Below, in pieces: positions 31,490 to 35,551 of a stretch of DNA of 37,999 nucleotides. Source of the DNA: a candidate division Kazan bacterium RIFCSPLOWO2_01_FULL_48_13 (GTDB taxonomy: Bacteria > Patescibacteriota > Kazan-3B-28 > UBA10110); NCBI GenBank assembly GCA_001771275.1, contig METE01000002.1:41983-79981 (forward strand). The letters run 5' to 3'. How positions within the stretch are numbered: position 1 is the stretch's first letter; the number at the start of each line of letters is the position of its first letter. The notes under the pieces were generated by a model. The model searched no databases. It had not been told where the DNA came from and saw nothing but the letters and a program-made list of their open reading frames with translations. Position numbers and translations under genes: made by a program.

Positions 31490-34400
31490 TCATTTTAATA
31501 AATTGATGACTTTTTTGAGGCCGTCGATCCAGTTGGCGCCGAGGCCTGCTAACGGCAGCTTGATCAAATTATCTGATACCTTGGCGCCGATGTTGCCCAA
31601 TGCGGCAATAATATTTTTATCTTTTACTACGATAGTTAGTGTAATATTACATAAATATTCTATCGGTTTATTGCTATGAGCGATATTGCGGGCCACGATC
31701 GAAGTGATCTTTTGGGTATCTAAGGCCAATAGTTTCAGCTTGAGTAGATCAAACAGATTTTGGACCTCTTTGGGCAGATCGCCAAATTTCTCTTGCATCT
31801 CGGAGAGGGCCCCTTTCATTTCTTTCTCGTCTTCCACTAAAGCCAGCTGCTGGTAGATCTTGATCCGCTGGGCCTCGTTATCGATGTAACTGTTAGGTAG
31901 GTAAGCGGAGATTGGCAGATCGACGGTAATGGTATCGACCTGCGGTCGATAGCCGGTCTTCAACTCTTCGATAGCGCGGTTTAAGAGCTTGGTGTACATC
32001 GTTAAGCCCACGGCGCTAATATGGCCGTGCTGTCTTTTAGATAGTACGCCGCCAGCACCTCGAATCTGGAGATCCCTAAGGGCGATCTGATAGCCGCTAC
32101 CTAATTCGGTATGGCTGGCAATAGTCTTGAGCCGCTCCAAGGCTTTACCTGATAGTTTGCCAGCGCTGTAGTAGAAATGAGCATAGGCTTGGATCTGGCC
32201 GCGACCGATCCGTCCGCGGAGCTGATGAAGCTGACTAAGACCAAAGTTCCCGGCATTGTCGACGATCAGTGTGTTGACATTGGGGTTGTCCAACCCATTT
32301 TCGATGATAGTGCTGGCGACCAGGCAATCGTATTTGCCCTGGCGAAAATCCTCCATAATTTTGGCTAGCAATCGTTCTGGCATCTGGCCGTGAGCATAGA
32401 CAAACCGCACTTCGGGCAGCACTTCTTTTAACTTGTTGGTAATACTGGCAATGGTAGCTACCCGATTATGGACAAAATAAACCTGGCCGCCTCTTCTAAT
32501 CTCGTTTAATACTGCATCTTTGACTGCACTCATATCAAACGGCGCCACAGTAGTTTGAATAGGCAGCCGGTTGATCGGCGGGGTCTCGATGGTGCTAATA
32601 TCGCGGATGCCGGACAGAGCCAGATTAAGCGTGCGCGGGATTGGCGTGGCGGTTAACGATAGTACATCCACCTCGGAACGCGCCAACTTTAATTTTTCTT
32701 TATGCCTAACACCAAACCGCTGCTCCTCGTCGATAATGATCAGCCCTAAGTTGGCAAATTTAATATCCGGCGATAACAACCGATGGGTGCCGATCACGAT
32801 ATCGACTTCGCGGGTTTTTAATCCGGCCACGATGCGCTTTTGTTCTTTAGTCGAACGAAAGCGGCTTAAGGCAGCCACCTGAGTGCCAAATGGGCTCAGT
32901 CTTTCGGTAAAGGTTTTGAGATGCTGCTCGACCAAAATGGTGGTAGGGGCCAGCACCGCCACCTGATAGCCGGCGGTGACGGCCTTAAAGGCGGCCCGGA
33001 TGGCCACTTCGGTTTTCCCAAATCCGACATCGGCGACTAATAATCGATCCATCGGTTTAGATTTCTCCATATCACTCAAAATATCTTGAATGACCTGTTC
33101 CTGGTCGGGTGTCTCTTCGAAGGCAAACGAATCAGCCAACGCCTTCTCCCAGAATTCGCCGCCTTCAAAAATGATGCCTTGATGAAGCGCTCGTTTAGCG
33201 TAAAGATCCAGTAGTTCTTTGGCGAATTCTTGCGATTCTTTTTTGATCCGGCTGACCAACCGCTTCCATCCCTGCGAACTGAGCTTGGACAGAGTGGGCT
33301 TTTCGCCAGCTACTGAGATATATTTGCTAATTTTGTCGATCTGATCAACTGGCACATAAATTTTGTCAGCGCCAGCGTATTGAATGGTCAAATACTCGCG
33401 AGAGATATCGTTAACGGTCATCGTGCCGATCTCGGTAAGTTTTCCGATCCCGTGATCGGCGTGGACCACATAATCCCCTTTTTCGATACCGGCCAAGAAG
33501 GCCAACTGCCGGCGGCGGGGCGTTTTTTTGGCGTGGCCGGTTTGGTCGGTAATGGGAGAAAATATTTCGGTATCGGTCAGCAGAATAATTTTTAATGCCG
33601 CGCTCATAAACCCTTCTGGCGCACGGCCTTCCAGCAGGGCTAATTTATCGGTGGGTTGATCCCCCATCGCAATTTTATGATCCAGGAGCACGGGCAGCAG
33701 CTGTTTGCTTTTTTCAGTGGCCAAAATTATCTGATAGTTCTTGCTGTCGTACTTTTTAATCTCGTTAGCCAGCCGATTGAGATTATTGGCAAACAGAGGG
33801 GCCGAGGCTAAATCAAATCTGATCAGATCACGCTCGGTGGGCGGAATAGCAACAAAGTGCCAGGCGGGCAGAATATCCAGCTGCTTGCTGACGGTAGTAA
33901 GGATGGTGTTGTCGCGATTGTTATTGCTGCCCTGATACAGTTCGTACAACATTTGAAACAGCTCGTCGGCTTGATGAAAAATGAGCAGGTACGGTTTGGG
34001 ATCCGGCTCCATTAGATCGAGTAAATACTGGTTGATCTTGGCGCTTTTAATGGCGGGCACCTTGATCAAATCTAAATGATTGCGAGTGGCGGCGCTGACT
34101 GGATCAAATTCCACGATCTGCTCCAATTGGCTGCCATTGAACTCCAACCGGTAGGGATATTGATTTCCCAGCGCAAAGATATCAATTACGCCGCCTCGCA
34201 TGGCCACCTCGCCGCTTTGAAAAACTTTGGTCTGCCGTTCGTAGCCATTGGCGATCGATTGGACCAGGAGCTCTTCTATGTTATATTCGCGGCCAACTTT
34301 AAAATCACTGGCGGAGGCGGGACTGGTGAGGGGTTCGATTAGTGATTTAGCTGGAAAGATAAAAATACCGGGCTCTTTGGTGGTAAGCGCGGCGGTAGCC

Positions 34401-34717
34401 GAAGCCCGTTCCAAGAAATCGGCGATGTATTCTTTGCGATTGATCCGCTCGGATTTGAGATCGGGATAGGTATAGATGGGTGTATTGGTTAACTGCTCTA
34501 AATCCTGCTTGAGAGCCGCCTGCTCACTTTCATTCTTAACTACATAGATGATCTTCTTGCTGGTATCTTGGCGAATCTGTGATAAAACTAACAGCTTCCC
34601 TGTTTGATTAAGGCCAGTAATATAAACTTTGCCATTGTTAACCTTCTGCTTAAGAGATTTATAAGCAGCGAGATTGCTAAATTTAGCAGACAGGTGGTGC
34701 AGAATTGATGCGACCAA
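31490..34717 (-). CDS. mfd: Transcription-repair coupling factor
   Basis: CarD-like GDYVVHADHGIGKLTEIGTM...YLTIQYAGADKIYVPVDQIDKISKYI; helicase DRLLVADVGFGKTEVAIRAAFKA, IIDEEQRFGVRHKEKLK, SLTATPIPRTL. Start codon TTG at 34717. Confidence 0.96.
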   Translation of the reverse strand: MVASILHHLSAKFSNLAAYKSLKQKVNNGKVYITGLNQTGKLLVLSQIRQDTSKKIIYVVKNESEQAALKQDLEQLTNTPIYTYPDLKSERINRKEYIADFLERASATAALTTKEPGIFIFPAKSLIEPLTSPASASDFKVGREYNIEELLVQSIANGYERQTKVFQSGEVAMRGGVIDIFALGNQYPYRLEFNGSQLEQIVEFDPVSAATRNHLDLIKVPAIKSAKINQYLLDLMEPDPKPYLLIFHQADELFQMLYELYQGSNNNRDNTILTTVSKQLDILPAWHFVAIPPTERDLIRFDLASAPLFANNLNRLANEIKKYDSKNYQIILATEKSKQLLPVLLDHKIAMGDQPTDKLALLEGRAPEGFMSAALKIILLTDTEIFSPITDQTGHAKKTPRRRQLAFLAGIEKGDYVVHADHGIGKLTEIGTMTVNDISREYLTIQYAGADKIYVPVDQIDKISKYISVAGEKPTLSKLSSQGWKRLVSRIKKESQEFAKELLDLYAKRALHQGIIFEGGEFWEKALADSFAFEETPDQEQVIQDILSDMEKSKPMDRLLVADVGFGKTEVAIRAAFKAVTAGYQVAVLAPTTILVEQHLKTFTERLSPFGTQVAALSRFRSTKEQKRIVAGLKTREVDIVIGTHRLLSPDIKFANLGLIIIDEEQRFGVRHKEKLKLARSEVDVLSLTATPIPRTLNLALSGIRDISTIETPPINRLPIQTTVAPFDMSAVKDAVLNEIRRGGQVYFVHNRVATIASITNKLKEVLPEVRFVYAHGQMPERLLAKIMEDFRQGKYDCLVASTIIENGLDNPNVNTLIVDNAGNFGLSQLHQLRGRIGRGQIQAYAHFYYSAGKLSGKALERLKTIASHTELGSGYQIALRDLQIRGAGGVLSKRQHGHISAVGLTMYTKLLNRAIEELKTGYRPQVDTITVDLPISAYLPNSYIDNEAQRIKIYQQLALVEDEKEMKGALSEMQEKFGDLPKEVQNLFDLLKLKLLALDTQKITSIVARNIAHSNKPIEYLCNITLTIVVKDKNIIAALGNIGAKVSDNLIKLPLAGLGANWIDGLKKVINLLK

Positions 34718-34720
34718 CTC

Positions 34721-34749
34721 TTGACTGGTTACTAATTATATGGTATAAT
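34721..34749 (+). promoter_or_regulatory. Promoter driving rightward transcription into the mfd-pth gap
   Basis: TTGACT, 17-nt spacer ending TGG, TATAAT. Confidence 0.7.
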
Positions 34750-34755
34750 GAGAAG

Positions 34756-35025
34756 AAATCTTAACCGTTTTGACAACCTATGGTACACTTTTCTATTCGG
34801 ATAACTGCCGGAAAGTTGGGAGAATCTTGCTTGCAAGCCATTGTCCTACCCTCCTTGGACTACGCTTGCAGGCAGGATTCTCCCTGCTTATTCTCTCCGA
34901 GTTGGAGACCAGAGGCGTCCCGACCCACCCATTGTGTTGGGGTCCGGTACAAAAACTCTTTATCGAGTTTGACGCCTTCTTAGGGGGCTGGGGGAAAAGT
35001 TAAGAGGGGCCTCACCGCCCCTTTT
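34756..35025 (+). ncRNA. Candidate structured non-coding RNA, family unassigned
   Basis: Plus-strand promoter, terminator hairpin at 35002-35025, no convincing ORF; 20-bp helix 34818-34837/34865-34884 with two G-U pairs; junction AGGCGTC/GACGCCT enclosing GACCC/GGGTC and AAACTC/GAGTTT hairpins. Confidence 0.55.
35002..35025. terminator. Terminator hairpin, possibly bidirectional (candidate ncRNA and pth)
   Basis: AAGAGGGGC-CTCACC-GCCCCTTTT. Confidence 0.65.
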
Positions 35026-35032
35026 AACATAT

Positions 35033-35551
35033 TTAAATTTTCAGAAACTTTTCTTTAATGGTTCTTACCGCCACGGGTAAGATTTTCTTAACTTGGGATA
35101 ATTGAGTGTTGGTAAAGTTGGCGGTGACATATTCGTTAGGTTCCAATTTCTCCGATCGGCTGATGCCTACTTTAAGCCGGGGGAAGATGTTGGTTTTTAG
35201 ATTATCAATCACCGATTGAACGCCTTTGTGTCCCCCACTGCTGCCGATCTCGCGATAGCGGAGCTTACCCAGATCCATATCAATATCGTCGGCCACGATT
35301 AAGATGTCCTCCGGCTTGACTCGATATTTTTTACTGATCGTTTTTACTGATATGCCAGAATTATTCATAAAGGTTTGTGGTTTGGCCAGGGCGATCTTAT
35401 CGGTTGCCCCGCCTACGGCCTGAAACTGGTCGTTCTTTTTTAACATTAGGCCTAGTTCTTTGGCCAAAGCATCAACTACCATAAAACCCACATTGTGCCG
35501 GGTGCGCTCATATTTTTTACCGGGATTGCCTAATCCGACTACTAATTTCAT
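35033..35551 (-). CDS. pth: Peptidyl-tRNA hydrolase
   Basis: MKLVVGLGNPGKKYERTRHNVGFMVVDALA; KPQTFMNNSG; DDIDMDLGKLRYREIGSSGGHKGVQS. Confidence 0.96.
   Translation of the reverse strand: MKLVVGLGNPGKKYERTRHNVGFMVVDALAKELGLMLKKNDQFQAVGGATDKIALAKPQTFMNNSGISVKTISKKYRVKPEDILIVADDIDMDLGKLRYREIGSSGGHKGVQSVIDNLKTNIFPRLKVGISRSEKLEPNEYVTANFTNTQLSQVKKILPVAVRTIKEKFLKI

Follow-up and report, generated by a model that had tools for sequence, protein, structure and literature searches.

The 6S RNA (RF00013) is a structured RNA with the form of a long rod and with refolding potential. In rhizobia, NfeR1 has CCUCCUCCC anti-Shine-Dalgarno motifs in hairpin loops whose stems have diverged; it base-pairs at the translation initiation region of mRNAs and thereby silences them (PMC10746234). 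For PmaR, from Agrobacterium, the interacting region is stated to be something other than an anti-Shine-Dalgarno sequence, and the majority of the predicted target sites lie off the ribosome binding site (PMC6234868). The raiA motif RNA is reported to be a widespread and highly structured bacterial non-coding RNA from Bacillota and other phyla (PMC11706538). For the CPR, or Patescibacteria, no paper was found that pairs these bacteria with a structured RNA; subscription journals were largely missing from the literature covered, and a prior description is not excluded. The RNA considered here lies beside pth in the window, by which is meant the whole stretch of 37,999 nucleotides that was analysed. 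By the criteria of a P1 hairpin with a C-rich loop, a P5/P2 junction, P3, P4, a promoter, a terminator and convergence with pth, all of which are met, it is a new pth-adjacent RNA family, and it is filed as a new family within an established broad category, that of structured small RNAs, outside every named family.

The gap between mfd and pth spans 34718-35032 of the window, with the signals of the RNA on the (+) strand (Table 1) and both flanking genes on the (-) strand, as the preliminary description of this DNA had it. The promoter proposed there, TTGACT-17-TATAAT, is present, scores 11 of 12 against the consensus and is TG-extended, a TG preceding the -10 element. The terminator proposed for the 3' end is present as a 12-bp stem, with the caveat that the (+) strand U-run is no more than UUUU and a consensus scan flags a terminator on the (-) strand only, so that the terminator may be bidirectional, serving both the RNA and pth. 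Also proposed were a 20-bp helix with two G-U wobbles capped by GUCC/GGAC, and a three-way junction AGGCGUC/GACGCCU enclosing GACCC/GGGUC and AAACUC/GAGUUU; the helix, P1, has the two G-U pairs and the inner stem GUCC/GGAC and is one base pair longer than claimed, and the junction is as described. The analysis establishes an architecture in which the long hairpin P1 is followed by the three-way junction P2/P3/P4, which can be closed by P5, and then by the terminator. The minimum free energy of the (+) strand is -116.2 kcal/mol, where shuffled sequences average -81.9 (z = -6.6; 0 of 200 shuffles as low), and the (-) strand fold of the same locus gives z = -3.45. Open reading frames of 67-77 aa overlap the RNA locus; the corresponding frame shrinks from 77 to 59 aa in the relative from the same genus, whose locus has 14 nt fewer, so that coding is not maintained. 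That a structured RNA exists here as a non-coding gene roughly 270 nt long, equipped with promoter and terminator signals of its own, is held with very little doubt, its transcription being inferred.

Table 1. Features of the RNA gene and of its neighbours, in positions of the window
Feature	Position	Strand	Sequence or pairing	Remarks
Promoter	34721..34749	+	-35 TTGACT (34721-34726); 17-nt spacer; -10 TATAAT (34744-34749)	
Entire RNA gene	34755..35028	+		5' end inferred from promoter, 3' end from terminator stem
Strand A	34812..34826	+	5' strand pairing with strand B	lengthens helix P1; rests on pair counts
P1	34818..34838 (5' strand) with 34864..34884 (3' strand)	+	21 bp	
Apical stem-loop of P1	34843..34860	+	GUCC-UACCCUCCUU-GGAC	CCCUCC at 34849-34854, anti-Shine-Dalgarno-like motif
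Strand B	34878..34891	+	UUCUCCCUGCUUAU	partner is strand A or strand C (P5)
P2	34914..34918 with 34972..34976	+	GGCGU with ACGCC	closes three-way junction
P3	34919..34926 with 34940..34947	+	CC-C-GACCC with GGGUC-C-GG	
P4 hairpin	34953..34970	+	AAACUC/GAGUUU	
Strand C	34990..34996	+	GGGGGAA	forms P5 with UUCUCCC (34878-34884); rests on sequence, covarying P5 in relatives and fold energies
Terminator-type stem-loop	34999..35028	+	GUUAAGAGGGGC-CUCACC-GCCCCUUUUAAC	12-bp stem
pth	35033..35551	-		peptidyl-tRNA hydrolase; convergent neighbour, conserved synteny anchor
mfd	31490..34717	-		divergent neighbour in window

Searches at the DNA level turned up copies of the RNA within the genus, at 84% identity, and within the family; those in the order were weaker. 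A covariance model, R1, built from nine class-level sequences (alignment A2), matched all nine genomes of the class with E values from 4e-19 to 3e-33, each of the nine copies lying beside pth and convergent with it; seven further, distant matches to R1 came from the wider phylum, and more were found by reading pth-adjacent DNA. The second model, R2, was made from six distant sequences (alignment A4) with no member of the window's class, and its recovery of the window RNA at E = 2.4e-8 is therefore independent support for homology. At E up to 0.01, R2 matches at least 28 of 363 genomes of the phylum, the figure being a lower bound because strict filters were used. The conserved core picked up by R1, and independently by R2, is 34811-34996, and searches with either model give one strong copy per genome. 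The family spans many lineages of one phylum, inferred to be Patescibacteria/CPR; a scan of viral contigs for pth found nothing. In genomes without a model match, CCCTCC occurs beside pth on the convergent strand in 4 of 43 and on the other strand in 1 of 43, an excess that is suggestive only as a sign of divergent members. Genomes without a model match (L059, L064 and L126) have other long CCCTCC hairpins near pth, in convergent orientation; members that have diverged strongly are one possible reading of these. One family has a second conserved stretch, GTCGCCTAGACAG..., beside pth (L061:1053-1110, L049 and L058), which could be either a further RNA or a piece of a divergent form. Two order-level relatives have an inverted-repeat element of the GTCATTCC...GGGATGACAG type located between P1 and the promoter of the RNA (L004:1275-1430 and L006:1240-1400), and the transcript would consequently have a longer 5' leader there.

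Conservation extends to the surroundings of the gene. At 23 of 24 strong loci, L105 being the exception, pth lies on the convergent strand, and from the end of the model match to the pth stop there are 36-144 nt at 22 strong loci and 473 nt at one. The weaker loci L110 and L114 have pth about 880 nt off, also convergent, and in L086, L112 and L113 the RNA is located elsewhere, not beside pth. The gene adjoining L086 and L112 looks like rplK, a reading made from the DNA with no database match behind it. Promoters of the form TTGAC(N)-17-TA...T stand upstream of nearly all homologous loci, and downstream of most of them is a stem followed by T-rich DNA. The genome to which the window belongs (G000) has a second pth-like gene, at C12:4290-4697 on the (-) strand, with 53% identity to the window's pth.

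The paired structure is borne out by covariation. In the class alignment A8, 89.3% of cells are paired and 24 of 48 pairs have changed on both sides, with 0 of 500 shuffles as high and pairing of 50% or less in slid controls. The distant alignment A7, of 15 sequences, has 93.4% of cells paired and two-sided changes at 27 of 42 pairs (0 of 500 shuffles; slid controls 45% or less). Both A7 and A8 were fitted to the structures, which favours their pairing figures; A4, a MAFFT alignment for which no model was used, has two-sided changes at 15 of 42 pairs, again with 0 of 500 shuffles.

Strand B (UUCUCCCUGC..., after P1) has more than one possible partner, and can pair with strand A to give an extended P1 or with strand C to give P5, plus P2 in many relatives. 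For A:B, alignment A7 shows 83.5% of cells paired with 10 two-sided changes; for B:C the figures are 91.3% and 9, and none of 500 shuffles matches either pairing on these measures. L110 and L113 have unrelated strand sequences in the same three-strand arrangement. Constrained folds give the two states energies of -50.3 and -50.2 in L094 and of -77.1 and -74.9 in the window copy, and the gap between the two states is small in many sequences and up to about 10 kcal/mol in others. Since covariation is seen in each of the two pairings and their predicted energies are close, the RNA looks bistable, a judgement that depends on thermodynamic prediction together with covariation, single-sequence energies being uncertain. 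Coexistence of P5 with part of A:B, as a pseudoknot, is also possible in the class to which the window belongs.

The apical loop of P1 is CCCUCC in 26 of 28 homologous loci, with a tip that is nearly always CCCUCC(UU), and the apical stem that carries it varies and covaries (GUCC/GGAC, GUUC/GAAC, CUUAAA/UUUAAG, CCUUAA/UUGAGG). Two of the nine class members lack the motif, the hairpin of L076 being truncated and the motif of L078 degenerate (CUCUCU), and the junction is kept in both. The 3' end of the genome's 16S rRNA reads GGAACACCTCCTTTC, in longer form GGAACACCUCCUUUC, and it follows that the loop, which repeats the CCUCCUU core, copies an intact anti-Shine-Dalgarno core; in the distant type, the loop CACCCUCCUUU resembles the whole of the 16S tail CACCUCCUUU. 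A pattern search that matched 0 of 9 had hinted at a lost or altered anti-Shine-Dalgarno in 16S rRNA, which would make a trans anti-Shine-Dalgarno RNA necessary; this was rejected because the 16S end differs at one upstream base with CCUCC intact. Rejected also was a tie between the CCCUCC loop and GGGAG in strand C, as the loop stays CCCUCC when P5 changes to CUCUCUG/CAGAGAG (L089) or to CUCCAG/CUGGAG (L104 and L106). Among the leaders of 213 sampled genes of this genome, GGAGG is present in 36 and AAGGAGG in 9, so potential targets exist. In the same sampled leaders GGAGGG, the exact complement of CCCUCC, is not enriched, the base after GGAGG being T in 16, A in 9, G in 7 and C in 6, and AAGGAGGG occurs in only 1 of the 213 genes.

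None of the named RNA families accounts for the locus. The window has no match in Rfam 15 at gathering score, and at relaxed E values (up to 10) only chance matches to microRNA, snoRNA and frameshift-element families; the loci of 29 relatives gave no sensible family match either. The RNase P RNA of the genome (RF00010) is at C1:56886-57655 and its tmRNA (RF00023) at C8:25900-26263 (E 3e-59), neither of them at this locus. RF00013 has no match at this locus, and a 6S RNA candidate at G000:C8:17434-17576 (-), with 32.7 bits and thus below gathering, has counterparts in all four family genomes examined. The SRP RNA models RF00169 and RF01854 matched none of 21 relatives, G000 included, a weak negative because some controls, the Bacillus subtilis control among them, were missed too; SRP RNA may be strongly diverged in these relatives, or the search may be insensitive. 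The SRP helix-8 signature (CAGG..GNRA..AGCAG) is absent from this RNA, and its only pattern match in the RNA's own genome is on another contig; an SRP RNA found by such a pattern was rejected, the pattern matches forming no consistent family. The preliminary description, which had found no resemblance to RNase P, tmRNA, SRP or 6S RNA, is upheld at this locus, and its reading of a novel structured non-coding RNA is supported by helices that are kept and covary in homologues occupying the equivalent gap beside pth, together with the absence of an Rfam family. New relative to it are the loop that resembles an anti-Shine-Dalgarno, the second possible pairing of strand B and the phylum-wide spread. 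The genome carrying the RNA is 791 kb in size, and its RNase P RNA match, on the (-) strand, covers 770 nt, about twice the model length, which suggests a large insertion. Several intron-like insertions, which contain homing-endonuclease-like reading frames, interrupt its 16S gene (L175:8030-11582 (-), on G000:C4); one of them overlaps a group II D1D4 Rfam match, and the gene ends at the 3' side in GGAACACCTCC instead of the usual GGATCACCTCC. The genome size and these insertions in the 16S gene are consistent with the inferred placement in Patescibacteria/CPR.

The best explanation, tentative and somewhat short of probable as a whole, is that of a new-family RNA with a trans-acting anti-Shine-Dalgarno loop and a strand exchange. 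The RNA would be transcribed and act in trans, its single-stranded loop CCCUCCUU imitating the anti-Shine-Dalgarno tail of 16S rRNA (5'-CACCUCCUUU) and pairing with AAGGAGG in mRNA leaders, whereby translation initiation would be blocked on mRNAs with a strong Shine-Dalgarno sequence; the A:B / B:C exchange would set its activity, stability or protein binding. For the loop, the rhizobial NfeR1/AbcR small RNAs offer a parallel, and NfeR1 is a precedent for silencing of this type. The anti-Shine-Dalgarno mechanism taken alone is inferred, without an identified target or transcription data, and can be called possible but not yet probable; against it are the missing motif in L076 and L078, the lack of preference for GGAGGG and the want of a target. 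The wider proposal, that this is a core RNA shared throughout the phylum by the ultra-small CPR bacteria and serves as a bistable translation-initiation regulator, an anti-Shine-Dalgarno decoy with strand exchange between two conserved folds, is doubtful at present. The main rival to mRNA as the partner is a protein that reads the 16S tail. The RNA could be a housekeeping ribonucleoprotein RNA whose CCCUCC loop mimics the 16S 3' tail and binds or titrates such a protein, perhaps Era or some other factor in 30S maturation or initiation, and its single copy, strong structure and synteny with genes of translation (pth and, in some lineages, apparently rplK) speak for this, as does the likeness of the distant-type loop to the entire tail. 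No protein partner has been identified, however, and strict conservation is limited to the CCCUCC core, which two members have lost, so that this role is considered unlikely.

Other explanations set the trans-acting anti-Shine-Dalgarno RNA aside altogether. A diverged universal RNA, SRP or 6S, missed by the Rfam models would fill the place of the SRP gene, unaccounted for in the 21 relatives, and the extended P1 rod recalls 6S; yet without the helix-8 signature, and with a better 6S candidate conserved in the family at another locus, this is quite improbable. That pth is nearly always the neighbour, with a shared terminator region, could instead point to a cis element for pth or mfd (a bidirectional terminator, an antisense or a leader) and not to an RNA gene at all, a view given very little credence when the RNA has its own promoter, a structure and G-U pairs that favour the (+) strand, no overlap with pth, and a position away from pth in L105, L112 and L113. 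A fold that arose by chance, a repeat or a protein gene that escaped recognition has only the overlapping reading frames of up to 77 aa to recommend it, and is refuted by covariation, with synteny, an open reading frame that is not maintained and one strong copy per genome also opposed to it; hardly any weight is left to it. What conservation across distant families, covariation, fixed synteny and an anti-Shine-Dalgarno-like loop jointly indicate is an important conserved role for the new RNA. Among bacteria the CPR/Patescibacteria form a very large group, whose genomes are tiny and in which few regulators are known, and the RNA is a specific and testable entry point to translation control in their cells, with a model that is searchable in metatranscriptomes.

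With 6S RNA this RNA has in common a long rod and refolding potential, and differs in that it has no match to that family and that the genome holds a separate 6S-like candidate. It resembles the raiA motif RNA in being highly structured and widespread, but has no Rfam match. With PmaR it shares a long stem whose loop is rich in C and accessible (PMC6234868), and it differs in the three-way junction and, once more, in the lack of an Rfam match. NfeR1/alpha-r14 and AbcR1/2 of the alpha-rhizobia come from an unrelated phylum, the RNA has no Rfam match to any such family, and mRNA silencing is only inferred for it; the nonamer CCUCCUCCC of alpha-r14 and AbcR is not found in it, its loop UACCCUCCUU having only the CCUCC core in common. 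The likeness is that of structured intergenic small RNAs in which an anti-Shine-Dalgarno motif is exposed in hairpin loops on variable stems (PMC10746234), and whereas alpha-r14 presents three hairpins, each with CCUCCUCCC, this RNA presents one hairpin with CCCUCCUU, a three-way junction and an alternative pairing.
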